Positions 3,995 through 22,821 of a stretch of 22,821 nucleotides of DNA are shown here, one piece after another. The translations under genes and the position numbers were made by a program. The notes under the pieces were generated by a model. It had not been told where the DNA came from, searched no databases, and was given only the letters and a program-made list of their open reading frames with translations. The stretch spans positions 1 to 22,821 of the IMG/VR virus record IMGVR_UViG_3300023172_000205; one strand, written 5' to 3'. Origin of the DNA: a virus. Every line of letters begins with the position of its first letter. Position 1 is the stretch's first letter.

Positions 3995-5422
3995 TTAAGA
4001 TTCGTCGTAGAAGGGAATCACCCTCATTGTGCCGGCGATCTTGATCTTGATGTAGCCAGTCGGTGTGCCCGGCAGTGCCGATGCACCTCCCGCCGATCCC
4101 ACAGTTGATTGTGTGGCCGTGTTAAGATCCACAACTCCAGTACCCTGTGTGCTGATAGAGATGTCACCATCTGACGTATCATTCTGTAAGGCGTCTGCCC
4201 TTACTGTAGTGGCCTCCATCAACGTGAAGTTGGCTTCTGTGGCGGTTAATTTCACGTTCGTTCCGCCAACCGCAACGTTCTGTCCTGCGGCAGGTGATAG
4301 TGTGATACCGCCTGATGTCGATGACAGTGTGTTGCCGTCCAATCTCAAGTTGTCAACATTAAGTTGTCCTGTTGTGGTCTGTGTTCCTGCGTGAGTGATT
4401 GGTCCTGTTAGCACAATGGCTCCTGTTCCAGCCGGATCGATCGTTATGTCTCCGTTTGTGTCAGAAGTGATAGTACCGTCTGCGATAATATTCAAGTCAC
4501 CAACTGCAAAAGTTCCTGTGGTCAATGATCCCGACACAGTTGTGTTACCTGTTGTGGCAACGTCCGCCGTGTTCAATGTTCCTACCACCGTTGTGTTTGG
4601 TATGATTCTGACCTGTCCTGTTCCCGATGCGTCCAGTTCTAGGTTCGCATTCGAGGCGTTGGTAGTGATTGTGTTGTCGGCCATTGAAATACTATCAACG
4701 GTCACAGTTCCTGTCATCGTGGCCGCGTTGATTGTAGGTGCTGTTAGAACTTTATTTGTTAAAGTTTGAGATCCTGTGAGTGTGGCAACCGTTCCGTCAA
4801 TCGCCGTTGTGACTGTGTTTCCCGTCGCACTTGTGGTTATACCAGTGCCTCCAGAGAACTGCATCACCTCTGAATCGAGATCAATCGAATTGGTAGTCGA
4901 ATCGTCTGCTGTGAAATCTAGATCTGCGGCTGTTACCTGTGCATCAACATATGCTTTGATAGATTGTTGCGTCGCCAAAGCAGTTGCCGAATCTGATCCC
5001 ATGGCATCTTCGTCTAGTATACCTGTTACAGTTGCACCCGACGCCAGTGCCAATGAGGTGCTCAAAGTTGTGGCACCTGTGATCGTTGCCGCACCCGCCA
5101 CATTCAACGTGCCTGTTGTCTGTATGTTCTCTGCTATTGTGATCTGTGTCGAATCGTCAGAACTCATTGTTGTGCCAACAAATTTCATCGCACCCAGTTT
5201 GATGCTACCTGTGCCATTTGGAGTGACAGTGATGTCACCGTTGGTCACACCTGTTGTTATTGCAAAGTTGTTTACGTCTAGGTTCGCGTCCAGTGTGTTG
5301 ATGTCGTTGTCTGTACCGTAAAGTTCCACGAAGTTGTCGTTGATCTTGTCAAATGCTGTTCTTAGTGGATCACCCGTGCCGTCGTTAGCACTTGATCCTA
5401 TGTTGATGTTTTGTCTAGCCAT
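3995..5422 (-). CDS. tail-fibre-like beta-repeat protein, 475 aa
   Basis: Residues 1-35 carry the shared fibre N-terminal module (INIG, ANDGTGDPLRTAFDKINDNF, ELY). Five copies of a beta-solenoid-type unit (N-x-D/A-I/L-x-x-x-x-x-G-T-G-x-V/I) lie near residues 60, 258, 322, 369 and 418, separated by Thr/Ala-rich beta segments. A module with DEDxM and ATQQSIKAYVD lies at about 136-160 and recurs in the 742-residue protein. The C-terminus (GYIKIKIAGTMRVIPFYD) is a compact end domain of a type common in phage fibres. No enzyme or chaperone domain. The late box at 5449-5458 and AAGGA before the ATG support late expression and this start. Confidence 0.82.
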   Translation of the reverse strand: MARQNINIGSSANDGTGDPLRTAFDKINDNFVELYGTDNDINTLDANLDVNNFAITTGVTNGDITVTPNGTGSIKLGAMKFVGTTMSSDDSTQITIAENIQTTGTLNVAGAATITGATTLSTSLALASGATVTGILDEDAMGSDSATALATQQSIKAYVDAQVTAADLDFTADDSTTNSIDLDSEVMQFSGGTGITTSATGNTVTTAIDGTVATLTGSQTLTNKVLTAPTINAATMTGTVTVDSISMADNTITTNASNANLELDASGTGQVRIIPNTTVVGTLNTADVATTGNTTVSGSLTTGTFAVGDLNIIADGTITSDTNGDITIDPAGTGAIVLTGPITHAGTQTTTGQLNVDNLRLDGNTLSSTSGGITLSPAAGQNVAVGGTNVKLTATEANFTLMEATTVRADALQNDTSDGDISISTQGTGVVDLNTATQSTVGSAGGASALPGTPTGYIKIKIAGTMRVIPFYDES

Positions 5423-5448
5423 ACTTTATGTTAATCCTTTTTGTTATG

Positions 5449-5458
5449 GGTATTTATT
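5449..5458 (-). promoter_or_regulatory. late promoter box (TAAATAC)
   Basis: AATAAATACC on the minus strand, 26 bases before the 475-residue fibre gene, with AAGGA in the leader. It sits in the intergenic gap 5423-5485. Confidence 0.65.
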
Positions 5459-5485
5459 TGAAATTCTATAAACCTAATGTAATTA

Positions 5486-6868
5486 TTATAGGTCTATTAT
5501 GACTCTCTGGAATTTGAACACTGTGCTGTCGTTGGTGATGTTGGTGGCCAGCAATCTCACATTACCGTCGTCTATGTCTGCTGTGAACGTGCATAATGGA
5601 TCCGTGTAAGAACCGGTGTTTCCAAACACGGTAACGTAGGCCTCCGTGGTGCTGTCAGCACTTGGGCCGTGTACCAGCGTGGCTTCCACCATCTCGAACC
5701 TGCTGTTGGTGGCGTCTGATATGGAGATGTAGTACTTGGCACTCCTGTACGAAGCACTAGACCAACTGTCTATGACGGTAGTGGCAGATGTTGCCACAGT
5801 TGCGGTGTTGTCACCGATCTCCGAGTGGTTCAATGTGGATGCACTTGAGATGGTCACAAATCCTATGTTGCCTGCACCGTCCGTCTTCAGCACTTGGTCC
5901 GCTGAACCGTCTGACGTTGGGAAACTGAGACCGCTGATGGACACCGTTCCCGTGCCATTGCCTGAAAGTTCCAGGTCAGCGTTGGAGGCATTTGACGAGA
6001 TCGTGTTGTCTGTGATGGTCACACCGTCGATGGTCATACCGCTAGTGGTTGTCAATGTGGTGAATGTTGCCGCCACCGGCGTGGTCGCACCTATCACGGT
6101 GTTGTCGATGGCACCGCTGTTGATGTCCACCTTGGCCATCACCACGGATCCTGATCCGCTCGCTGATAGCACCAGGTCTGAGTTGGATTGCGTGGTCGTT
6201 ATATTGTTGTCCGTGATATTGACATTAGAATCTATGGTCAGGTTGCTGACGTTCACTGTGCCGGTACCTCCCGGTGTGAGGTTCAGGTCAGCGTTTGAAC
6301 TGGTTGCTATTGTGTTGTCGTTGAATGTGATGTTGTCTATTGTGGTTGTCCCGACCAAACTCGTTGCTCCTGTCACGTTCAACGTAGATAGTGTTGTCAA
6401 TGCTGAAGGAACTGCCAGAGTTGAACTTAGGTTTGTTGCACCTGAAAGTGTTGCCGCACCAGAAACATTTATTGTGCCATCTACGATCAATCCATCGTTG
6501 ATGTTGATGGCAGTAGAGTCATCGGAACTCAATGTCGTGCCTCTGAATTTCACTGCACCAAACACCACAGAACCGGTGCCGCTTGGTAGTAAATTTATGT
6601 TTTCATTTGATCTTGTGCCTTCGATAGTGTTATCGTTGATCCTGATTGCTGGGAAGGACACGGCACCTGTGCCTGAAGGCTTGAATACCAGGTCCTCGTT
6701 TGATCTAGTGGCGGATATCTCATTGCCACTGAAACTTAGATCACCGCCTGTGAGTGGAGATAGGTACAGTTCCGTGAACATGTCGTTCACTTTCTGCATG
6801 GCGGATCTCAGAGTATCACCTGTGCCGTCGTTTGCGTTTTCACCTACATTTAAAGTCTGTTGTGCCAT
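5486..6868 (-). CDS. tail-fibre-like beta-repeat protein, 460 aa (paralogue A)
   Basis: 460 residues. The N-terminal fibre module (LNVGENANDGTGDTLRSAMQ) is followed by five beta repeat units of the S-N-x-D-L...G-T-G-x-V type near residues 56, 87, 191, 228 and 296, with a VIGATTPVAATFTT linker at about 258-271. A C-terminal domain (about 365-460) ends in a GNVRLLAT...FKFQR pattern. The next gene upstream (6870-8246) encodes a clear full-length paralogue with the same domain order, so the pair arose by tandem duplication. Only one base separates the upstream stop and this ATG (TAACATG), and I see no late box here. It is therefore probably translated from the transcript that starts at 8255-8264. 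Confidence 0.82.
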   Translation of the reverse strand: MAQQTLNVGENANDGTGDTLRSAMQKVNDMFTELYLSPLTGGDLSFSGNEISATRSNEDLVFKPSGTGAVSFPAIRINDNTIEGTRSNENINLLPSGTGSVVFGAVKFRGTTLSSDDSTAININDGLIVDGTINVSGAATLSGATNLSSTLAVPSALTTLSTLNVTGATSLVGTTTIDNITFNDNTIATSSNADLNLTPGGTGTVNVSNLTIDSNVNITDNNITTTQSNSDLVLSASGSGSVVMAKVDINSGAIDNTVIGATTPVAATFTTLTTTSGMTIDGVTITDNTISSNASNADLELSGNGTGTVSISGLSFPTSDGSADQVLKTDGAGNIGFVTISSASTLNHSEIGDNTATVATSATTVIDSWSSASYRSAKYYISISDATNSRFEMVEATLVHGPSADSTTEAYVTVFGNTGSYTDPLCTFTADIDDGNVRLLATNITNDSTVFKFQRVIIDL

Positions 6869-6869
6869 G

Positions 6870-8246
6870 TTATACTTTTATCACCCTTTTCACGAATTTT
6901 ATTACTTGGTTGTTAGTGTTATTTACTGTTCCTAGCAACCTAACGTTGCCGCCCGATATGTCCGCACTCAAAACTATTGACTGATACGCAGTTGATCCAT
7001 CTCCCTGACCGTTGCCTACACGTGCAAAAGAACTGACATAGGCGTTGGTTCCGTCGTGTGTGACGTTGGCCTCCACCAATGCGTACCTGTCCGCCGTGCT
7101 GTCTGACATCTGTATCAGGTATTTCACACTCCTGTGTGTTGACGCACTGAATGAATCTATGGTCTGTGTCGAGGAGTCACCTGTTATGGTGACCGTGCCG
7201 TCCGCTATGTCTGATTCCACATACAGAATTGGGAAGGTGACCAAGGAGAGGTTCTTGGATGCATCCGTCTTTATGAATTGTCCCGCCGCATATGAGTTTG
7301 GCCAACTGAAACCGTTTATCAGGACGTTGCCTGATCCACTGGCACTGATCTCGAGATCAGCGTTCAGGGTGTTGACCGTGATCTGGTTGTCCTTGATGTT
7401 GAGCTGGCCAGCGTTGATCTCCGTATTTGTTAAGGACACCGTGGTGAAGGTTCCAGCGGCCGGTGTGGCGGCGCCTATCACCGTGTCGTCGATGGTGCCT
7501 GAATCTAGATCGATGTTTGAAATCTGTGTGGAGCCCGTGCCATTGCCTGACAGAGTCAGATCGTCATTGGATCTGGTGACCTTGATCACGTTGTCCGTGA
7601 GGTTGATGCTGGAGTCTATGGTGAGATTACTGACGTTGACCACTCCCGTGCCACCAGGTGTTAGGTTAAGGTCAGCATTGGAACTGGTGCCTATGATGTT
7701 GTCGTTGAACGTGAGGTTGTCCACCGTGGTTGTTCCCACGAATGAAGAAGCACCCGAAACTGTCATGGTAGACAGTGTGGTCAGACCAACCACATCTAAT
7801 GTGGATCCGATTTGAACCGCTCCACTTAATGTTGTCGCTCCTGCAGTCAAGGTGCCATCAACGTTTAGGTTCTCGTTGATGTTCACTATGGATGAGTCAA
7901 TTGCAGTGATCGTAGTTCCTGATATTCCGATCCCGTCAACAACCAAAGATCCCGATCCGTTTGCCCTCAATATTAGATCCTCGTTGGATCTGGTGCCCTC
8001 GATGTTGTTGTCGTTGATACGTATCGCTGGAAACAGTACGCTACCTGTCCCTGAGGGTTTCAACACTATGTCTGCGTTGGATGCCGTACTGCTGATCTCG
8101 TTCTGTAGGAAACCCAGTGTGGTGGTCGCCAACGGATCAGCGTACAACTCCGTGAAGTTGTTGTTGATCTTGATGCCCGCACCTCGTATGGTATCGCCCG
8201 TGCCGTCGTCCGCGATCGTTCCTATGTTTATTACCTCTTGTGCCAT
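6870..8246 (-). CDS. tail-fibre-like beta-repeat protein, 458 aa (paralogue B)
   Basis: 458 residues with the same architecture as the neighbour at 5486-6868: INIGTIADDGTGDTIRGAG module, five S-N-A-D...G-T-G repeat units, an AATPAAGTFTT linker and a C-terminal domain with GGNVRLLGT. Long stretches are identical to the paralogue, for example SSNADLNLTPGGTG and VNVSNLTIDS. Other stretches have diverged, notably the end domain, which would be the receptor-facing part if this is a fibre. The late box at 8255-8264 lies only 8 bases before the ATG, so the leader is very short. Its role in the virion is inferred from composition and neighbours. Confidence 0.82.
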   Translation of the reverse strand: MAQEVINIGTIADDGTGDTIRGAGIKINNNFTELYADPLATTTLGFLQNEISSTASNADIVLKPSGTGSVLFPAIRINDNNIEGTRSNEDLILRANGSGSLVVDGIGISGTTITAIDSSIVNINENLNVDGTLTAGATTLSGAVQIGSTLDVVGLTTLSTMTVSGASSFVGTTTVDNLTFNDNIIGTSSNADLNLTPGGTGVVNVSNLTIDSSINLTDNVIKVTRSNDDLTLSGNGTGSTQISNIDLDSGTIDDTVIGAATPAAGTFTTVSLTNTEINAGQLNIKDNQITVNTLNADLEISASGSGNVLINGFSWPNSYAAGQFIKTDASKNLSLVTFPILYVESDIADGTVTITGDSSTQTIDSFSASTHRSVKYLIQMSDSTADRYALVEANVTHDGTNAYVSSFARVGNGQGDGSTAYQSIVLSADISGGNVRLLGTVNNTNNQVIKFVKRVIKV

Positions 8247-8254
8247 AATTTACT

Positions 8255-8264
8255 GGTATTTATG
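8255..8264 (-). promoter_or_regulatory. late promoter box (TAAATAC)
   Basis: CATAAATACC on the minus strand, 8 bases before the 458-residue fibre gene; no room for a full Shine-Dalgarno. It probably drives the paralogous pair 5486-8246. Confidence 0.65.
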
Positions 8265-8265
8265 G

Positions 8266-9099
8266 TTAAGGAGAGACGTTCTTGAATGGATGATCACTGG
8301 GCAGATTACCGGTCAAACCCCACTTGTGCGCCAGGTATCCTTCTGCCTTCTGGAAGTCGGTTATGTCCGTACCGCCCGTGCCCGGCAGTGCGCCCACCAC
8401 GAAGAACTCCGCCAACTGGCCATCCAGCCTCTCGTTGGCCCTGTTCCTCATTACCCTTATGTCCTGGTTGGTGTTGATGGCATTGTCGTAGTCGTTGACC
8501 GGGGTGAATGCGTTTGAACCGTCCACCCTGACGGATATCTGGTTGCCGGTCTTGTTGAATATGGTGCCCACTATGTGGAATGCGTCAAGGCTCACTGCCG
8601 AGTCAAACGCCTCTAGGTTACCTATGGTTGATGATATCCTGTTGGAACTCAAAGCGTCCAGGTCCAACTCACCGTTGAACGCACTGGCGTTACCGGCGCT
8701 GACGGCGTATCCCCTCTTGCTGGTGCCCGCCACGGTGTTGTTCGTGAAACTGTAGAAACTGTCCTGGGTGTCACTAATTGTATCCGCCAGGAACACGCCT
8801 ATGGCCCAGTGGTTGCCGGATCCGTCCGTGACGGCCCCCTCACCTGTGGTGGTGAGATCATAGTTTCCATTGAAGTCCCACACATTGAGACCATTTAGAG
8901 CGGCAGTGAGCCTTTGGGGGTTACCGCCGATCGTGATTGAGAAGTTGCCTGATTTGTCAGTCACAGACGATAGGACGTTAGCACTCAACGTGTAAGTGCT
9001 GGTGTCTGAGGCGTCGATGTGATAACGTGTGGTGATGCTCGCCGTAGGATCCCAGTTGCCGCCCACTGTGATGATGTGTCTGTGTATACCCAGAGGCAT
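8266..9099 (-). CDS. LamG/concanavalin-A-like lectin-domain protein
   Basis: 277 residues. The sequence has the pattern of LamG/concanavalin-A-like jelly-roll proteins: an early Y-H-I-D-A-S-D-x-S-T-Y segment, central D-x-S-G-N blocks, an AEFFVVG strand, and the C-terminal signature EGYLAHKWGLTGNLPSDHPF. That signature is typical of the C-terminal end of LamG-type domains in marine bacterial and phage proteins. It probably binds glycans on the host surface or decorates the tail. The ATG at 9099 has an excellent Shine-Dalgarno (AGGGGG) and follows the 742-residue fibre gene by 9 bases, so the two are in one operon from the late promoter at 11349-11365. No signal peptide, consistent with a virion rather than an exported protein. 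Confidence 0.78.
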   Translation of the reverse strand: MPLGIHRHIITVGGNWDPTASITTRYHIDASDTSTYTLSANVLSSVTDKSGNFSITIGGNPQRLTAALNGLNVWDFNGNYDLTTTGEGAVTDGSGNHWAIGVFLADTISDTQDSFYSFTNNTVAGTSKRGYAVSAGNASAFNGELDLDALSSNRISSTIGNLEAFDSAVSLDAFHIVGTIFNKTGNQISVRVDGSNAFTPVNDYDNAINTNQDIRVMRNRANERLDGQLAEFFVVGALPGTGGTDITDFQKAEGYLAHKWGLTGNLPSDHPFKNVSP

Positions 9100-9108
9100 C
9101 CAGTCCCC

Positions 9109-11337
9109 CTATGATGACCTGTAGTCCTTGGCAATGTTGCCCAGGAAGTTGGTTCCGTCGTTGATGATCGTCACGACATCGATGTCTCCACCGCCTGTGG
9201 ATAGTGTGCTACTGTTGGATGGGAACTTCACAGCACTTGAACCGTCTGTGCCGAATGTGGCCGTCCTTGTTCCTGTGCCATCCTGTGTGATGATCAAGGT
9301 CACGGAACCACCTGTTGGTAGGTTGGTGATGTTGAATTCTGTTGACGTTCCTAGTGTTACGGTGTGTATGCTGGCCAATGCACAGTTGACAGTTATGGTC
9401 GAGCTCGAAGTTAATGAATTGATCTTCTCAATGTATCCGGCGTTGAATGTCACTGGACCTTGTGCGACAACTCCTCCTGTGCCTGATGGGTCAAGTGTGA
9501 TGTCCGCGTTTGAAGGTGATTGTATCGTGCTACCCGTGAACGTGATGTCTCCGGTTGACCCTCCACTGACTCCACTTATCTCTGAGTCAACGTAGGCCTT
9601 GATCGATTGTTGCGTGGCCAGTGCTGTGTCGCTGTTTGAAGACATGTTGTCTTCGTCGAGTATAGTCGTCACAGTTGAACCACTTGTGCCTATTTTCAAA
9701 TTCTCTAGTACGATCGTTCCTGTACCTGATGCGTTTATCTGTAGGTCAGCGTTTGATGTGGCTGATGAAATTGTGTTGTCTGTGATCTGAACACCGTCAA
9801 ATGTGCTTGAACCTGTTGCTGTGAAACCCACCGCGTCTATCTGTCCTGAACTTGATATGTCCGCTGTTTCTGTGTCACCACCTGTGACCACAAGTCCACC
9901 GACCGCGGTGACTTTTCCTGTTCCGCTTGGATCCAATGTTAATGGAGCATTTGAAGGTGAACTAATAGTGCTTCCTGATATTGTCAAGTCACCAGTTGAA
10001 CCACCGCCAACTGAATCTGCGTATGCTTTCACAGCCGCTGATGTTGGAATGGTCGTGTCGTTGTTGTTTGATCCTATGCCCTCGCCTGCTGTCACTATGC
10101 TGGCCGCGGCAAAGTCCGCAACTTCTAGATTGCTTATACTATTTCCAGTGCCATTGGCATCTATTGTCTTGTTGGTCAGTGTGTCTGATGAACTGGCTGT
10201 GATGTAACTTGATAAATCTGGTCCTGTGACGGTTAAGGTGTCGCCTGACACTGCTGTTGTCACTCCCGTGGCACCTGCCACTTTGAACGTCTCTCCCAGT
10301 GTGACCGCTGTACCCGATGAGTCATCACCCACCACTGTCAATGCTGTCGCTGTTGCACTCGCGGCATCCGTTATGCCGTAGCCTGCAAGTGTTGTCGGCG
10401 TTGATGTCACGTTAGAGAAAGCAACTGAACCTGTAAATGTTCCTGTGATGTTTCCTGTGACGTGTAGATTCTCTTTGATCGTTACCTGTGTTGAATCCGT
10501 TGAACTCAATTCCGTTCCTTTGATCTGTATTCCGTCCACACTCACACTGCCCGTGCCTGATGTTGTCAAAGTAAGATCCGCGTTCGACGGTGCTGATATT
10601 GTTGATCCTACAACGGATAGGTCACCTATGTCCCTGGCGTCCACGTATGCCTGTGTGGCGTAGTTGGAGTCATTGGTCCATTGAGATATGTTTCCTGCCT
10701 TGTTGGTGAATGTCATTGAGTCTGATGCTATGTTGGCATCCTCGGCATCCACGTATGCCTTGATCGACTGTTGTGAGGCAATCGCAGTGGCACTGTTTGA
10801 TGCCATGTTGTCCTCGTCAAGGAACACCCCTGATGTGAAGTCAGCGATGTCAACATTTGATAATGAGTTACCTGTGCCGTTGGCGTCGAATGTCTTGTTG
10901 GTGAATGTTGTCGTGGAACTCGCTGTGACATCTCCTGCGGCCGAGGCTTCCAATCCTATAGTACCTGTGCTGTGATCATATACAAATACGTAATTGTCTT
11001 CGCTGGCTCCCACAGTTTGATCTGCGTTGAAAGTAAAGTTACCTAACACAACATTACCTGTTCCGTTAGGAGTGATCGTGATGTCCGAATTTGTAGTGAT
11101 GCTTGAGATTGTGCTGTTTTGTATTGATAAAGTGTCAATCTCTATAGAACCTGTTCCGTTGGCCTGTAGTTTTAGGTCACCGTTCGTTACATCAGTGGCT
11201 ATTAGACCAGATGATCCATCCCTCACCAAAGAGTATACTTCCGTGAAATTCGTGTTGATTTTCTGCATAGCGGTACGTAGAGTATCGCCTGTGGCTGGGT
11301 TTCCTAGTACACCTATGTCTATATTAATTCTCGCCAT
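9109..11337 (-). CDS. long tail-fibre-like beta-repeat protein, 742 aa
   Basis: I place the start at the ATG 11335-11337 (MARINIDIG) because the shared fibre N-terminal module begins there and the late box sits 11 bases upstream. A start at 11436 would put the promoter inside the gene. The protein has 742 residues with six S-N-A-x-L...G-T-G beta units, two copies of a TNKT-x-DANGTGNS block, and several DEDNM...QQSIKAYVD modules. The C-terminal domain (about 640-742) resembles the small protein at 695-1258. Internal duplication plus sharing of modules with the 475-residue protein point to fibre growth by recombination. It is probably a long side-fibre or tail-tip protein. Confidence 0.82.
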   Translation of the reverse strand: MARINIDIGVLGNPATGDTLRTAMQKINTNFTEVYSLVRDGSSGLIATDVTNGDLKLQANGTGSIEIDTLSIQNSTISSITTNSDITITPNGTGNVVLGNFTFNADQTVGASEDNYVFVYDHSTGTIGLEASAAGDVTASSTTTFTNKTFDANGTGNSLSNVDIADFTSGVFLDEDNMASNSATAIASQQSIKAYVDAEDANIASDSMTFTNKAGNISQWTNDSNYATQAYVDARDIGDLSVVGSTISAPSNADLTLTTSGTGSVSVDGIQIKGTELSSTDSTQVTIKENLHVTGNITGTFTGSVAFSNVTSTPTTLAGYGITDAASATATALTVVGDDSSGTAVTLGETFKVAGATGVTTAVSGDTLTVTGPDLSSYITASSSDTLTNKTIDANGTGNSISNLEVADFAAASIVTAGEGIGSNNNDTTIPTSAAVKAYADSVGGGSTGDLTISGSTISSPSNAPLTLDPSGTGKVTAVGGLVVTGGDTETADISSSGQIDAVGFTATGSSTFDGVQITDNTISSATSNADLQINASGTGTIVLENLKIGTSGSTVTTILDEDNMSSNSDTALATQQSIKAYVDSEISGVSGGSTGDITFTGSTIQSPSNADITLDPSGTGGVVAQGPVTFNAGYIEKINSLTSSSTITVNCALASIHTVTLGTSTEFNITNLPTGGSVTLIITQDGTGTRTATFGTDGSSAVKFPSNSSTLSTGGGDIDVVTIINDGTNFLGNIAKDYRSS

Positions 11338-11348
11338 AATCTGATACT

Positions 11349-11365
11349 CGTATTTATTAAATACG
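11349..11365. promoter_or_regulatory. bidirectional late promoter, perfect 17-base palindrome
   Basis: CGTATTTATTAAATACG is a perfect inverted repeat around a central T. On the minus strand it gives ATAAATACG before the 742-residue fibre gene; on the plus strand TTAAATACG before the zinc-ribbon gene. Both strands carry the late core TAAATAC, so one site can fire two divergent transcripts. Confidence 0.7.
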
Positions 11366-11368
11366 AAT

Positions 11369-11647
11369 ATGTTCGTAGAAACCCTTAAAACCATCAAGTT
11401 GTACAAGAGGGAGAGCAAGTACGGGGTCATGCACAACTATCGAAGGCGGAACATGATCTACGTGTTCAGGTGTGACGCCTGTTCCGAGACATTCCAGAGG
11501 CCCAAATCCAAGGTGGATCCCGCTCGTGCCTCAAACGACTACAAGCACGTGTGCAGTAATTGTGATTCCAAGAAGTTTGCCCAAAGCGTGGGCGTCAAAA
11601 TGCGTCGGGTGTATCAACTGGACGCCAGCAGTACCAAGACCCTATAA
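11369..11647 (+). CDS. zinc-ribbon protein, plus strand
   Basis: 92 residues from ATG 11369. Two CxxC pairs (CDAC and CSNC, residues about 35-38 and 62-65) are 23 residues apart and flanked by basic residues (ETFQRPKSK, DSKKFAQ), which makes a typical zinc-ribbon finger. Small proteins like this in T4-like phages may bind DNA or RNA, and related fingers occur next to homing nucleases, but no nuclease motif is present. It diverges from the fibre operon across a palindromic late box (TTAAATAC four bases before the ATG), so the message would be leaderless. An alternative start at Met29 (11453), preceded by AAGGCGGA, would give a 64-residue finger. Its last codons overlap the tail of the 11642-12385 gene by 6 bases. 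Confidence 0.7.
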   Translation: MFVETLKTIKLYKRESKYGVMHNYRRRNMIYVFRCDACSETFQRPKSKVDPARASNDYKHVCSNCDSKKFAQSVGVKMRRVYQLDASSTKTL

Positions 11648-13747: not shown

Positions 13748-14876
13748 TCCTCAGTGCCTCCATTTGTATCTGTTTCCAATCGTCACTTTCTAATGTGTAC
13801 GGGTAGTCACACTCCACAGAGGGACCTGTGATTGTCCTTATGCTGGTGATGTCTAAATTACTGTTCATGGTTTTGTGTATGTCTTGAATTGTGGCATTTG
13901 TTCCAAATGTCCTCTGTAGGTCTATCTGACCTATCTTTATGTAACCCAATGATAATCTTGGATGTTCCCAGTCATAATTGTTTTCAGTAAGCCATTTCCT
14001 GTAATTGTTGATTTCATCTTTATGCCAATCACATGTGTCTTCCTTAATTGTTTGTCCCCATTCAACATCAAATTCTCCACTGTAATATTTTTGGTGATTG
14101 ATCTCACTACACAAGGTCTCTGTCATGACAGGTCCGTGTTCGTCCCTGAACACCTCGTACAGAGTCTTGCCCACTTGTGACCAGTGCAGGTACACACCAC
14201 CAAGCTCTCGGTCATACCTGTTCTGTTTGAAAAGTTCAAAGTCCTGCTCGTGCAGATCATATCTTGGTGCGTTTAGGAAAGTTGTTATTTGTGATGCTCT
14301 CATCCATTCTGGTTCGAACGCCTTCTTACGATCGGCACTGACCCATCCTTCTATTTCATGGCACAGGTTATTCAATTGTCTTATAGCATATTTTGTCTCG
14401 TAATCGGCCTGTTTATAAAAGTTTGAAAGTTGCCATGCAGTGCCTTGGAGTTCTTCAAAATGTCTATGCAGTAAGTTACAAGACTCATGTTTGAGTCTCT
14501 TGCCCAGTGTTACTGATTCATCACCGTTGACTGCTTTTCCTATAGGTAAATCACTGCTGTACTGAAAGTCATCCACAGTGAATGGTTTTATCTTTTCATA
14601 AAGGGGTTCAAATGTGAAAGAGTTTATCTGTGCTACACTATTGTTCAACTCACCTACCAGGTAGTTAAGATCTCTCTTTGAATCTGCAAATCCCAGGAAA
14701 CAGAAGTTCTTCTCCAGTATCCTCTTTTGTTTGAGATTATCTTTGAGTGCCGCTAACCACCTGTGTCCTAAAGGAGTGTCATAGATCTGGAAGTAGTAGG
14801 CTATGTCAGTCAGGCCCACTCTCACCAAGTCATGTATAAACTTATTCTTTTCTGTAGATGGCACTGTTGGCTCCAT
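13740..14876 (-). CDS. hypothetical protein, about 378 aa
   Basis: A long single frame ending at TAA 13740-13742. I place the start at Met MEPTVPSTEK (14876), which overlaps the queD-like gene by 35 bases; the alternative ATG at 14903 would extend the overlap to 62. It is soluble, mixed alpha/beta and rich in Trp and aromatic residues. The C-terminal region NYDWEHPRLSLGYIKIGQID resembles phage proteins I have seen but cannot name. Several His residues and acidic pairs are present (for example HKDEINNYRKW), but no clear catalytic signature. It sits between queD and a glycosyltransferase in a tightly coupled array, so a role in modification is possible but unproven. Confidence 0.72.
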   Translation of the reverse strand: MEPTVPSTEKNKFIHDLVRVGLTDIAYYFQIYDTPLGHRWLAALKDNLKQKRILEKNFCFLGFADSKRDLNYLVGELNNSVAQINSFTFEPLYEKIKPFTVDDFQYSSDLPIGKAVNGDESVTLGKRLKHESCNLLHRHFEELQGTAWQLSNFYKQADYETKYAIRQLNNLCHEIEGWVSADRKKAFEPEWMRASQITTFLNAPRYDLHEQDFELFKQNRYDRELGGVYLHWSQVGKTLYEVFRDEHGPVMTETLCSEINHQKYYSGEFDVEWGQTIKEDTCDWHKDEINNYRKWLTENNYDWEHPRLSLGYIKIGQIDLQRTFGTNATIQDIHKTMNSNLDITSIRTITGPSVECDYPYTLESDDWKQIQMEALRNG

Positions 14877-15291
14877 GTTCCATGCATTCAACTTCCACAA
14901 CATAACATCTGTTATCAGTTTTTTCTCTGATCAGTTTATCTGCGAAATCAAATGCGTGTTTGGCAAACATCTCAGCACCAACACCATCGAACTCCACGAT
15001 CTCAGCAAGGTCATGTTTCTCAAGTGCCTTCAGTTTGTCCAAGTGTGGATCATTGATGTCCACTGCGGTCTTGTGATCGAAATGATCCTCCAACCATTTC
15101 TTCAGTGGCTTCAATGATCCGAAGTCCACCGCCCAGTTCTTGTTGTCCAGTCGATCGCAACCGAACGTGAATCTGAATGCCAGGCTGTATCCGTGCAGTA
15201 AGTGACAGTGTGAGTGGTCTGCGTTGGGCTGTCTGAACACGCAGGCCAATCCTATGTTGTGTCCGTATGTTTTAGTCGAGTAGTAAGTCAT
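14842..15291 (-). CDS. queD-like: variant 6-carboxytetrahydropterin synthase (QueD/PTPS-like)
   Basis: 149 residues. Family landmarks are CHLLHGY (Cys29, His33, Tyr35) in place of C-x3-H-G-H, WAVDFG (53-58), FDHKT (Asp72/His73, catalytic pair position) and a late CMEHG. Canonical QueD makes 6-carboxytetrahydropterin from dihydroneopterin triphosphate on the way to preQ0/queuosine, using zinc held by three His. Here the third His is replaced by Tyr and the N-terminal region (YGHNIGLACVF) is unlike E. coli QueD. I recall a similar variant in marine alphaproteobacteria and cyanophages. The strong Shine-Dalgarno AAGGAG 5 bases before the ATG fixes the start. It may serve pterin/7-deazaguanine chemistry or another reaction. 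Confidence 0.85.
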   Translation of the reverse strand: MTYYSTKTYGHNIGLACVFRQPNADHSHCHLLHGYSLAFRFTFGCDRLDNKNWAVDFGSLKPLKKWLEDHFDHKTAVDINDPHLDKLKALEKHDLAEIVEFDGVGAEMFAKHAFDFADKLIREKTDNRCYVVEVECMEHGANSAIYRKE

Positions 15292-18659: not shown

Positions 18660-18666
18660 TCAGGGA

Positions 18667-19806
18667 CTATAGTCCACACCAGTTTCTAAATGATTCCGGA
18701 AGGAAGTTTAAATCTATTGATCTTCTTTTGGAGAAATCTTTTAGATAAGTGCTTATATCTGCTCTCTCTGTTGCTGTTGGGGTGGTTTCGATAGATTTAA
18801 TAAATTTATTTACTTGGAGGTCATTACTGTATTTGTTCATCTTTTCTAACACCTGCTTTTTACTATTGTCGTCAAGCACATGTGGCATCATGTGCGGCCG
18901 TTCGGTCAACGGGTTTGTCCTGATAGGATATCTCTTAAAAACTTCATAAAAATTAGCGAAGTCTAAATAAGATATATTAGATATTACAGAGGTGAACTCT
19001 ATTTCATTGCCATACTCCTCCAGCATTTTCACCCTTTGTTGGAAATCACTCCATGTGTGGCCGTATCTCAAAAGTTCAAAATAACTGCCTGTGGCCTCTG
19101 CTGACAGTATGAACTTTATTTTACGATGCTTAAACTTTTCAAGAAAATTTGCCAGCCTGTTGGCACTGATTCCTAGTCCCGAGGTGATGCTTATTTTTTT
19201 GTCCTCTGCACTTTCTATTATTTTTGAAATTGCATTGTTTAATAATGGTTCTCCTCCCAATAAAGATAACTCAGTGATATCAGACATAGAGATCTCTTTT
19301 AATAATAGCCTCAGGAATTTTGTTTCGGTGCTACGTGACTTCTGTTTCATCTTTGACCATAATTTTGCCCAGGCGTCATTTTGTATTGTTAAGCCGCTCA
19401 TCTGGTAATCTCCATTTTTTTCTATATCTTTCTGCCAGGATGAACTAAATTCGGGTCCACAGTACATACAGGTAAGGTTACAGTCTGTTGAAAGAGATAT
19501 ACTGAGATTCCTTAGCGGAGCCATGGGATCATTTATGTACGTCGGTTGCTGTATTTCTAACCTTTTGCTGGATAAACCTTTTTCTTCGTATTTGTAACAA
19601 CCAAAATGGCATGATTTGCAGGATTTATCTTCGAGCATGGTTTTACGATCATCAAGCATGGTATCGGTGTAAAATAGTTTTCCTGGGTTGGCTTCTAGCC
19701 AATCAAGATTGATTCTTTCTGGCAAGGCGTTACAGCAGTTGTACAGCAATCTGCTTTGAACGTGTACCTGTAGGTCAGTAAATTTAGCAGAACAGTAGTA
19801 ATCCAT
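18667..19806 (-). CDS. radical SAM enzyme with extra Cys clusters
   Basis: 379 residues from ATG 19806 (MDYYCSAKFTDLQ). It contains the radical SAM CxxxCxxC motif CNLTCMYC (residues about 109-116), which binds [4Fe-4S] and S-adenosylmethionine. N-terminal YNCCNALPE and the Cys-rich SCKSCHFGC (C-x2-C-x3-C) could ligate an auxiliary cluster, as in twitch/SPASM-type enzymes. A GGEPLL loop is the usual SAM-binding GGE. The likely chemistry is radical modification of a peptide or small molecule, with no target identified. The promoter (TTTACA / 17 / TTAAAT) ends 6 bases before the ATG, suggesting leaderless early expression. The HesB-like carrier at 12385-12720 may supply Fe-S clusters. The longer frame to 19908 is rejected for lack of a start context. 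Confidence 0.88.
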   Translation of the reverse strand: MDYYCSAKFTDLQVHVQSRLLYNCCNALPERINLDWLEANPGKLFYTDTMLDDRKTMLEDKSCKSCHFGCYKYEEKGLSSKRLEIQQPTYINDPMAPLRNLSISLSTDCNLTCMYCGPEFSSSWQKDIEKNGDYQMSGLTIQNDAWAKLWSKMKQKSRSTETKFLRLLLKEISMSDITELSLLGGEPLLNNAISKIIESAEDKKISITSGLGISANRLANFLEKFKHRKIKFILSAEATGSYFELLRYGHTWSDFQQRVKMLEEYGNEIEFTSVISNISYLDFANFYEVFKRYPIRTNPLTERPHMMPHVLDDNSKKQVLEKMNKYSNDLQVNKFIKSIETTPTATERADISTYLKDFSKRRSIDLNFLPESFRNWCGL

Positions 19807-19812
19807 GCTTAT

Positions 19813-19841
19813 ATTTAAATTAAGTTGCGATGGTGTGTAAA
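19813..19841 (-). promoter_or_regulatory. candidate early promoter, leaderless
   Basis: TTTACA (19836-19841), 17-base spacer, TTAAAT (19813-19818), 6 bases to ATG 19806 of the radical SAM gene. Weaker hexamers, but the same geometry as the three clearer examples. Confidence 0.5.
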
Positions 19842-20063
19842 TTAAGCGTCGTCGCCGATCTTGTAGTGGTCCTGGTATTCCTTGAACTGTGCTTCTGTGA
19901 GGCACCATATCTCACCTGAGCTCTGTGGGAAATTGATCATTGCGTATTCCTTCACTTCCGCACCCGAGGCCTCGCACAATGCTTTGGTGTCATAGAGTTT
20001 CTGTTCGTACACGCTCTCACAGGCTCCCGCCATGCACATGTAGACCACTAAAATAAATTTCAT
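19842..20063 (-). CDS. small secreted Cys-containing protein
   Basis: 73 residues. The N-terminus MKFILVVYMCMAGACES looks like a short signal sequence, and Cys at 10, 15 and later positions (about 30 and 54) are available for disulfides. A near-lipobox (A-G-A-C) is weak evidence for lipidation. The remainder is hydrophilic and ends YKIGDDA. A late box TTAAATAC starts 12 bases before the ATG (gap of 4), identical in spacing to that of the zinc-ribbon gene, so expression should be late. Related small periplasmic proteins occur in marine T4-like phages (recollection, no name). Possible roles are envelope modification or lysis/superinfection control. Confidence in the reading frame is good, in function low. 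Confidence 0.7.
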   Translation of the reverse strand: MKFILVVYMCMAGACESVYEQKLYDTKALCEASGAEVKEYAMINFPQSSGEIWCLTEAQFKEYQDHYKIGDDA

Positions 20064-20132: not shown

Positions 20133-20411
20133 ATGGATTTCGTGACATTCATCGCAGAAGTGGGTTTCCCAATAGCAGGTGCCATAGCGGCAGGTGCCTT
20201 CGTGTTCATCACGCTGAAATTCATTTTAGCAAGTGTGACGGGATCTGTGAACAGTCTGAAGGCCATAATTGGTGCACTGGACAACAGGGTGCAGACCATG
20301 AACAATGACCTGGTCAAGATAGATGCACTGTTGAGTTACGTATTAAAGATCAGACCCAACGCGGACAGGTTGGCCGCAAACGAGGGCAAGAACGATGCTA
20401 GACGCGACTAA
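20133..20411 (+). CDS. small membrane coiled-coil protein (holin-like), copy 1
   Basis: 92 residues starting MDFVTFIAEVGFPIAGAI. I chose ATG 20133 because the late box GTAAATAC (20116-20123) lies just 9 bases upstream and the upstream Met at 20088 precedes the promoter. One strongly hydrophobic segment (about 10-35) is followed by a charged helix (DNRVQTMNNDLVKIDALL). The next gene encodes a paralogue with the same 'FGFPI + TM + coiled-coil' layout. Size, single membrane segment, charged cytoplasmic tail and late promoter fit a holin-like or membrane-organising role, without direct proof. The stop overlaps the next gene by 17 bases. Confidence 0.75.
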   Translation: MDFVTFIAEVGFPIAGAIAAGAFVFITLKFILASVTGSVNSLKAIIGALDNRVQTMNNDLVKIDALLSYVLKIRPNADRLAANEGKNDARRD

Positions 20412-20736
20412 CGATATAGTGACAATGATCAAGGATTTTGGTTTTCCTATCGTGGCCGCGATGGGATTGGGTTACTTCGTGTACTACATATGGAAATGGG
20501 TGACTGAAGAGATCAAACCGGTGTTGGGTGATGCATCATCAACACTGATAAAACTCGTGGACAGAATAAGAATGTTAGACAATGATATGATAAGATTGAA
20601 CACAAAACTTTCAATGGTGCTAGAGTATAAGGAAGAAATCATAAAGTCTGGACGTTCAGACGAGTTAGACGAGATACTTGCCAAATACAAAACAAAATCT
20701 GAGAGCTTCGACTCCACAGGCGATACAAAAAAATAA
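20395..20736 (+). CDS. small membrane coiled-coil protein (holin-like), copy 2
   Basis: 113 residues. KDFGFPIVAAMGLGYFVYYI gives one transmembrane segment near residues 14-33, followed by WKWVTEEIKPV and a long charged helix (DNDMIRLNTKLSMVLEYKEE) like copy 1, plus a polar tail KTKSESFDSTGDTKK. The pair likely forms homo- or hetero-oligomers through the helix. Translation starts within the previous gene (17-base overlap), with GGGCAAGAA upstream. Its stop directly abuts that of the convergent CHASE2-cyclase gene (TAA at 20734-20736; minus-strand stop at 20737-20739), leaving no intergenic space. Function is inferred only from topology. Confidence 0.75.
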   Translation: MLDATNDIVTMIKDFGFPIVAAMGLGYFVYYIWKWVTEEIKPVLGDASSTLIKLVDRIRMLDNDMIRLNTKLSMVLEYKEEIIKSGRSDELDEILAKYKTKSESFDSTGDTKK

Positions 20737-22746
20737 TTACTTCGTTGTTGCTCGGAACGTTCCGTCCCAATCCTTGGGTTTGCCTGATTCGATACGAGCC
20801 TTCATGTTGGCGTAATATTCGGCCATGTTCTCATGGAACTCCTTGGCTATATCTAATCTCTTGAGTGCTTCCGTCCAATCTCCTGCGTAATATGATTCCA
20901 GGAACTGCCTGTGGTGTTCGGACTCCTTGGCCACGGTGTATATCTTGACACCTATTGTCTTGCCTTTGACTGCTATGCAATCAAGTTCGAACACGTTTAT
21001 CTTGTCTTTGACTCGCCTTGCTGTCTCAGGTCCAAGCACTATCCGGACACCGTACGTCTTTGACTGTCCCTCCAGCCTCGCGGCCAGGTTCACTCCATCT
21101 CCAAGGCAGGTGTAGTCGAAGCGTTGGTCGGATCCCATGTTGCCCACCACGACCTCCGCAGTGTTTATACCCAATCCCATTCCAAAGGCCGGTATGCCCT
21201 CCTGCTGTACTTCCTCGTTGAACTTGTCAAGGCTGTCCAACATCTTGATACCCGTCCACACGGCGTTCTCCGCGTGATCCCAATCATCCAGTGGTGCGTT
21301 CCAGAAAGCCATCTGTGCGTCACCTATGTACTTGTCTATGGTGCCCTTGTTGTTCAGTATCTCTCGGGTCATTGCCGTCATGTATCTGTTCATTATTCTC
21401 GTAAGTCCTTGCACGTCCTCACCATAGTGTTCTGAAATGGAAGTGAATCCCCTGACGTCAGTGAACATTATTGATAGGTTCCTTGATTCGCCACCCAACT
21501 TCAATAGGTCGGGATTCTTCTGTAGTTGTGCCACCATGTCTGGTGATAGGTATGTGCCGAACTGTTTCTTGATCTGTTGTTTGAGGCTGAACTCTTTGAC
21601 GAAACGATTGAACACTGCGTGGAATCCTGTGATAGTGGTCACGAGTATGATCCAACTGGCGTCCCAGAGTTGTAGGTGTTTCACGAAATAGAAATATGCT
21701 CCATAGGCCGTGCCTGACCACACAGTCAGTAGTACAGCACCCACCAACCAGTAGGGAGCGAATCCCGCCAACAATATTATTATGATTGCTAACACACCGG
21801 CCGCAACATATTCAAGGAACGTGGCAGTGTCCAGCCTAACGATGTTCTCACCATTCAACACGGTCTGTAAACTGACCGCCATCGCTGTGTGACTGTACTG
21901 CTCTCCATTTGGAGTTGCTATAATCGTGCTGATACCTTGGGCGGTGTTGCCTATTATCACAGTCTTGCCCGCCACTGACGTGAAGTCATCCGTGATGCTG
22001 ATCGTTTCAAACTGCTTGTTCCATCTCAGCCATATCCTTGCGTACTGGTCTGTTTTAATTGTTTTGAATTTTGGTACCCTTAGTGCTATCACTCCACCTT
22101 CGCTGGCTTTGACTTGATAACTGGGATCACCAACTGCGACCCTGATAACCTCCAATGCCACACTTGGATAGACTTCTTCACCCACCCTCATCAGCAATGG
22201 GAGTCTCCTCACCACACCATCTATCTCGGGCGTAGTGTTGACCACACCAACACCGTCAACGTTGTCTCCTAACAAAGGTATCGGTCCCAGCATTCCTGGC
22301 CATTCGAACAACCAAGGCATGGGATCTCCTATCTTGGCCACACCTCGTGGCACTGCGTTCTTGTTCGTCTGTGTTGTGCCCGCCTGTGCTATCACGATCC
22401 CGTTCTGCACCAATGCCTGTGCCAGGTCCATGTCTCCTCCCAACCTGTCCTCCTCTGAGAACAATATTGGCAGTACGATTATGCCCGCACCCGCTTCTCT
22501 CAATCTCCAGATCACATCTGCGAGTACCGTCCTCTTCCAAGGCCACTGTCCGTTCTGTTCTATGCTCTTCTCGTCTATCTCTACAATCACCACATCCTCA
22601 CTCATAGTGGGAGCGTCGTATTTCTGTATTAGGTCAAAACTTTTTAATCTTGCTGTCTCTTTCACGAATGGATCCTTGAGACCCCACGTCATTAACACCG
22701 CCAGTGTTATGAACGCCAGTGTCCAGTGTGTAAGTATCCGTTTCAT
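20737..22746 (-). CDS. CHASE2-adenylate/guanylate cyclase (class III), full length
   Basis: 669 residues. A first membrane helix (about 8-24), a CHASE2 sensor domain (about 28-305; VEIDEKSIEQNGQWPWKR, GPIPLLGD), three more membrane helices (about 312-329, 332-352, 362-379), a short linker, and a class III cyclase catalytic domain (about 420-605). Catalytic residues are intact: metal-binding Asp430 (MFTDVRGFT) and Asp476 (KYIGDAQMAF), purine-selecting Lys472 and Asp544 (FDYT), transition-state Asn553/Arg557 (GVNLAARLE). Lys/Asp at the selecting positions predicts ATP rather than GTP. A C-terminal TPR-like helical tail follows. CHASE2 senses an extracytoplasmic signal, so this would make cAMP in the host membrane. 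The ATG overlaps the upstream stop (ATGA). Confidence 0.95.
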   Translation of the reverse strand: MKRILTHWTLAFITLAVLMTWGLKDPFVKETARLKSFDLIQKYDAPTMSEDVVIVEIDEKSIEQNGQWPWKRTVLADVIWRLREAGAGIIVLPILFSEEDRLGGDMDLAQALVQNGIVIAQAGTTQTNKNAVPRGVAKIGDPMPWLFEWPGMLGPIPLLGDNVDGVGVVNTTPEIDGVVRRLPLLMRVGEEVYPSVALEVIRVAVGDPSYQVKASEGGVIALRVPKFKTIKTDQYARIWLRWNKQFETISITDDFTSVAGKTVIIGNTAQGISTIIATPNGEQYSHTAMAVSLQTVLNGENIVRLDTATFLEYVAAGVLAIIIILLAGFAPYWLVGAVLLTVWSGTAYGAYFYFVKHLQLWDASWIILVTTITGFHAVFNRFVKEFSLKQQIKKQFGTYLSPDMVAQLQKNPDLLKLGGESRNLSIMFTDVRGFTSISEHYGEDVQGLTRIMNRYMTAMTREILNNKGTIDKYIGDAQMAFWNAPLDDWDHAENAVWTGIKMLDSLDKFNEEVQQEGIPAFGMGLGINTAEVVVGNMGSDQRFDYTCLGDGVNLAARLEGQSKTYGVRIVLGPETARRVKDKINVFELDCIAVKGKTIGVKIYTVAKESEHHRQFLESYYAGDWTEALKRLDIAKEFHENMAEYYANMKARIESGKPKDWDGTFRATTK

Positions 22747-22821
22747 CCCCTGATGCCCTCTGTTGCTTTCCTCATGAACTTATAATTGACCCATTCCTCG
22801 AATCTATCTTTTTTATTTTTG
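22743..22821 (-). CDS. C-terminal fragment of a gene cut by the right edge
   Basis: The frame reads in from the right edge and stops at TGA 22743-22745, overlapping the ATG of the cyclase gene by 4 bases. At least 25 residues are seen, ending FMRKATEGIRG, preceded by a basic KNKKDRFEEW. No family can be named from this fragment. The 4-base overlap means the cyclase is translationally coupled to this gene, whose identity outside the window would tell what controls the cyclase. Confidence 0.6.
   Translation of the reverse strand, partial: KNKKDRFEEWVNYKFMRKATEGIRG

Follow-up and report, generated by a model that had tools for sequence, protein, structure and literature searches.

A CHASE2 adenylate cyclase of phage curli cassettes exchanges its catalytic domain at a conserved linker

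The cyclase gene and the phage contig that carries it

The stretch of DNA analysed here, referred to as the window, spans the 22,821 bases of a virus record and represents a contig of a marine T4-like tailed phage. Its left half encodes tail-fibre and baseplate-connector proteins according to PHROG matches. Close to its right end lies an uninterrupted open reading frame of 669 codons with an ATG start and no internal stop (20737-22746, minus strand). The product of 669 aa is a CHASE2-TM3-class III adenylate cyclase, as identified by Pfam, catalytic residues, a structural model, Foldseek and phrog_35576. Pfam CHASE2 (PF05226) matched residues 17-327 with 146.7 bits against a cut-off of 26.3, covering the sensor together with flanking membrane helices (21766-22698, minus strand), for which the likely topology predicts a periplasmic location. 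Guanylate_cyc (PF00211) matched residues 422-603 with 67.7 bits against a cut-off of 21.9 and delimits the catalytic domain (20938-21483, minus strand), which was also recovered by PDB and fold matches and belongs to the type that we call A below. The full-length match to phrog_35576 (E 1.1e-254) means that the cyclase family was already present in the phage database, albeit without a function.

The AlphaFold2 model of the protein (mean pLDDT 86.5) consists of an N-terminal helix, CHASE2, three helices, a cyclase fold and a helical tail. One helix precedes CHASE2 (residues 7-23) and three follow it (308-329, 332-357 and 364-396), so that the sensor is placed between the N-terminal helix and three membrane helices, the arrangement expected of a CHASE2 sensor. 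Foldseek found similarity to CyaB of P. aeruginosa (TMt 0.84) and to CyaC of S. platensis, and phmmer and Foldseek together place the catalytic half among CyaB, CyaC and related class III cyclases. In addition to the PF00211 fold, the protein has the metal-binding Asp pair (D430 and D476), the substrate-selecting Lys/Asp pair (K472 and D550) and the transition-state residues Asn and Arg (N553 and R557) that define a class III nucleotide cyclase. The initial annotation had described a complete enzyme with the metal, substrate and transition-state residues intact, and the reading frame, Pfam matches, residues and model all bear this description out. The dN/dS values between the gene and its near relatives range from 0.02 to 0.12 in both halves, which indicates a gene under purifying selection rather than a chance reading frame.

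As its residues predict, the window cyclase would produce cAMP from ATP. The Lys/Asp pair on which the initial annotation had based its prediction of ATP use is indeed present, and D430, K472, D476, D550 and R557 are invariant across the 83 phage rows of our alignment; all six catalytic residues are invariant across 80 bacterial relatives. A few residue changes can switch the substrate of class III cyclases, which would leave room for another nucleotide such as cGMP as the product, or for a role of the protein as bait or in counter-defence. We consider this highly improbable because the Lys/Asp pair does not vary among the phage proteins, and no defence gene linked to the cassette described below was noticed in an unsystematic look.

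The start codon of the cyclase lies only 75 bp from the right end of the contig. The remaining bases hold the last 25 codons of the preceding gene (22747-22821, minus strand), the stop of which overlaps the cyclase start. These 25 residues align with the product of the gene that separates curlin-2 from the cyclase in a related locus with a complete cassette (L009), and we predict that csgF, csgG, curlin and FecR of the window lie just past the contig end, within about 6 kb. A cyclase at the end of a contig could be suspected to stem from an assembly chimera or from a host fragment joined to phage DNA. However, the cyclase and the gene order downstream of it recur in many independently assembled contigs of different metagenomes, and the two cultured phages HTVC008M and Melnitz carry the cyclase as well. 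We therefore rule out a chimera or host junction, the probability of which is practically nil. The placement of the cyclase among phage genes was confirmed by the baseplate and tail-fibre PHROGs and the shared downstream order, and we saw no sign of the contig break or host junction about which the initial annotation had cautioned. No DNA-level match was found between the window and cultured phages, and the window contains no RNA families or tRNAs.

Several other genes of the window deserve mention. A radical-SAM-like gene (18667-19908) is absent from the nearest relatives L002, L003 and L005, the alignments of which skip about 18664-19836 and stay collinear on both sides; it resembles an insertion or a piece of exchangeable cargo within the lineage of the window. 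Several successive proteins encoded at 3995-11436 share an N-terminal match to a baseplate/tail-fibre connector (phrog_677 / phrog_958) and have diverged repeats, apparently a tail-fibre array that arose by duplication. We also observed a reading frame with an A-type iron-sulphur assembly domain (PF01521; 12385-12882), a QueD-like 6-pyruvoyl-tetrahydropterin synthase (phrog_2389; 14842-15291) and two phrog_30607 paralogues in the one phage (11642-12415 and 16402-17040), one of which has a weak sialyltransferase match.

The curli cassette and a pair of small membrane proteins

Relatives of the cyclase are encoded in at least 592 IMG/VR stretches. Among 50,697 cultured-phage records, six contain a close relative over most of the cyclase length, and the cultured carriers are HTVC008M (infecting SAR11) and Melnitz (infecting OM43), both Kyanoviridae. 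The rarity that the initial annotation had supposed for characterised phages thus holds for cultured phages, whereas the gene is common in marine viral contigs. Its central claim of a rare phage cyclase is correct in this sense but not new. Curli genes in pelagimyophages were reported in 2020 (PMC7029224) and 2022 (PMC9004378), and PMC9599517, also from 2022, describes a cassette of csgF, csgG, curlin, FecR and adenylate cyclase in marine pelagiphages.

We surveyed HTVC008M, Melnitz and 80 viral loci that had been retrieved by their cyclase. CsgF, CsgG and FecR were all present in each of the 39 phage loci having more than 6.5 kb of upstream sequence, and every Csg or FecR match in the surveyed loci lies upstream of the cyclase on the same strand. 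The upstream order is csgF-csgG-curlin-FecR, which is also the order in HTVC008M and Melnitz. Exactly one class III cyclase was found per record in 18 of 18 phage records searched. The window cyclase is a member of this already described phage curli (T8SS) cassette, the complete form of which is seen in the 39 relatives, the corresponding region of the window itself being off the contig. In the record MW574966, taken from PMC9599517, no curli genes are annotated within the first 45 kb.

Next to the cyclase, the window encodes two small membrane/coiled-coil proteins on the plus strand (20133-20411 and 20395-20736). The first matches phrog_18771 and the second is its paralogue; each has a hydrophobic N-terminal stretch and a charged tail that is probably a coiled coil. 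Of 83 phage loci, 68 contain these genes, which invariably come as a pair and are mostly placed before csgF or right after the cyclase. In the reverse direction, we retrieved 80 loci with the pair family alone; csg, FecR or cyclase genes were present in 69, and the other 11 are contigs that break off shortly after the pair. A search of the 50,697 phage records with the second pair protein returned only the HTVC008M and Melnitz records, which carry the close cyclase. The pair is a fixed two-gene partner of the curli cassette that was previously unrecognised.

According to PMC9599517, one or two histidine kinases precede csgF. In HTVC008M, Melnitz and several contigs this slot is filled by the small membrane-protein pair, and a HATPase_c domain was absent from the 19 records searched. 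For these 19 records, we rule out a histidine kinase as a partner or as the identity of the small genes. Judging from HTVC008M, Melnitz and these contigs, the reported histidine kinases may be misannotated pair proteins, which is a matter of annotation and leaves membership in the cassette untouched.

No Pfam family scored above its cut-off for the pair proteins. The holin family phrog_4898 matched 9 of 14 pair members in a weak and short match (best E 1.6e-5) and none of seven unrelated small membrane proteins used as controls, which is a lead to holin-like membrane proteins rather than proof. One could imagine on this basis that the pair, the CsgG pore and the cyclase act as a release module, which senses the envelope and helps to time lysis or non-lytic export. 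The occurrence of the pair only together with the cassette and the holin match are in line with such a module, and a lysis role for CsgG has been proposed by the Melnitz authors. Yet the holin match is weak and short, no endolysin was seen in the cassette, and the curlin-repeat proteins would be left unexplained. We hence consider a release module unlikely.

Catalytic domains swapped beneath a conserved sensor

Comparison of the window cyclase with its relatives disclosed opposite identity profiles for the two halves. Between the window and L009, identity is 96% for the sensor and 50% for the catalytic domain, whereas L006 shares 60% with the window in the sensor and 90% in the catalytic domain. 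The identity shifts at the motif KQQIKKQF (residues 389-396; 21559-21582, minus strand) between the window and L009, L012 or L006 as well as between L006 and L026 and between L013 and L014. In the swapped pairs, the DNA becomes alignable again in the downstream flank, indicating that only part of the gene was exchanged.

We sorted the catalytic domains into four types (A-D) by residues near the active site, an assignment based on the catalytic domain that preceded the construction of the sensor tree. The window cyclase is of type A, that of HTVC008M of type B and that of Melnitz of type C. Types B, C and D each form a single clade in the catalytic tree. On the sensor tree of 66 rows, the same types require at least eight changes against a minimum of three, and AU tests with a careful tree of 31 rows rejected single clades of A, B or C (p < 1e-30). 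An artefactual domain swap was ruled out, as each type is borne by several independent contigs, the flanks of which become alignable again past the exchanged part. Phages thus combine different catalytic domains with a near-identical sensor, and the conserved IKKQF junction serves as the point of exchange between them. The signal leaves the membrane helices at this linker, and we infer that exchange at this position would keep sensor and enzyme in register. Such exchange under a conserved sensor is natural evidence for KQQIKKQF as a plug-in point of class III cyclases, knowledge of which would benefit signalling research.

The types also differ in their active sites. Ser replaces the transition-state Asn in types C and D, including the cultured phage Melnitz, and this change may lower their activity; types C and D are possibly weakened enzymes that are kept under selection. 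Separately, Ile was observed in place of the Asp preceding the substrate Lys in types C and D (e.g., L083:14992-17043 and Melnitz).

Origin, proposed role and comparison with known systems

The best bacterial relatives, which are mostly alphaproteobacterial, share about 37-39% identity with the cyclase along most of the protein. In trees with 80 bacterial relatives, which were quick and have long branches, the phage sequences form one separate group with a support of 100 for the sensor and 94 for the catalytic domain. A gene nested within a host genome segment, which the initial annotation had considered, was not what we found, as the phage group stands apart. A recent acquisition from a sampled bacterial lineage is unsupported for the same reason; the sequences would fit one old acquisition followed by exchange among phages.

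Phage FecR proteins have a signal-peptide-like start, PF04773 at about residues 53-151 and no other family. No anti-sigma region was detected in them, and they lack the cytoplasmic region before a membrane helix by which an E. coli-type anti-sigma FecR is recognized. With a signal-like start and no anti-sigma region, the cassette FecR should be a secreted, periplasmic protein and not a regulator of an ECF sigma factor. We fetched flanks of up to 10 kb for the 80 bacterial relatives of the cyclase. A FecR-domain reading frame occurred in the flanks of 33 of them, a positional association in under half. If small overlaps and short upstream stretches are allowed, about 18 of these frames are the immediate upstream neighbour on the cyclase strand; a stricter rule gave 15 of 69 relatives. 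No Csg genes were detected in the same flanks. FecR but not curli therefore looks like the older partner of the cyclase, which suggests that FecR and the CHASE2 cyclase are an ancestral sensing pair of bacteria, to which curli genes were added in phages. In Burkholderia, a secreted LysM-FecR protein adjoins a CHASE2 kinase (PMC5192318), and the CHASE2 cyclases of S. meliloti respond via an outer-membrane beta-barrel protein (PMC13001267).

Where the putative cAMP would be received is less evident from the phage genomes. The 18 phage records searched, many of which are fragmentary, yielded no cNMP-binding domain, and we reject a phage-encoded receptor on these grounds; a host or other receptor would be required. 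The initial annotation had proposed that cAMP could reprogram host catabolism or motility, for which it would have to act on a CRP-type regulator of the host. In agreement with this idea, cNMP-binding proteins are present in all nine bacterial genomes with related cyclases that we tested. However, a class-level sample of 191 genomes around a marine alphaproteobacterium includes 51 without the domain, of which nearly all that were listed measure 1.8 Mb or less, and the exceptionless linkage to curli genes would be left unexplained. The proposal found no support in our data, and we regard it as quite unlikely, more so than a release module. Two single-cell genomes of SAR86 (L111 and L124) encode a CHASE2 cyclase that clusters near the phage catalytic domains in the tree, and have one cNMP-binding match each; they could possibly represent a minimal host pathway for comparison.

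We favour the reading that the cyclase is the signalling member of the phage curli (T8SS) cassette and senses the state of the cassette, with FecR as its likely input, to which we give a probability of roughly 0.6. The CHASE2 domain would face the periplasm and read the state of the cassette itself, most likely via the secreted FecR-domain protein encoded upstream. FecR may report the traffic of curli subunits or the envelope status near the CsgG/CsgF pore. From there, the signal would cross the three membrane helices and run along the KQQIKKQF linker to reach a cyclase dimer, which would produce cAMP in the infected cell, and the two holin-like inner-membrane proteins would complete the unit. 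A more elaborate version, in which the holin-like pair, a periplasmic FecR reporter, the curli pore and the CHASE2 cyclase, with a catalytic module swapped by recombination at a fixed linker, form a self-contained trans-envelope device for sensing and release, is tentative and on balance doubtful, though slightly less so than the release module alone. Curli cassettes of phages occur widely in the ocean, and a fixed sensor-cyclase, a fixed holin-like pair and a secreted FecR turn a loosely annotated gene list into a testable unit.

The cluster of PMC9599517 shares the order of csgF, csgG, curlin repeats, FecR and adenylate cyclase with the loci described here. That paper does not name CHASE2 and reports histidine kinases that were not found in our 19 records; neither the domain exchange nor the membrane-protein pair is described in the sections considered. 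Relative to the literature cited here, the domain exchange, the fixed membrane-protein pair and FecR as a partner are new. The cyclases of Melnitz (QZI94833) and HTVC008M (AGE60353) have the same architecture and cassette position and are 57% and 51% identical, respectively, to the window protein. They differ in that the type C enzyme of Melnitz has Ser at the position of the transition-state Asn retained in type A, and in that the type B enzyme of HTVC008M is devoid of the C-terminal tail. The rhizobial CyaD1, CyaD2 and CyaK also combine CHASE2 with a cyclase and signal via an outer-membrane beta-barrel protein. They are bacterial and act with the CRP-like regulator Clr, and curli genes are not mentioned for them in the sections of PMC13001267 considered. 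The LysM-FecR/CHASE2 operon of Burkholderia (PMC5192318) likewise joins a secreted FecR-domain protein to a CHASE2 sensor, but its output is a histidine kinase, whereas the output in the phages is a cyclase.
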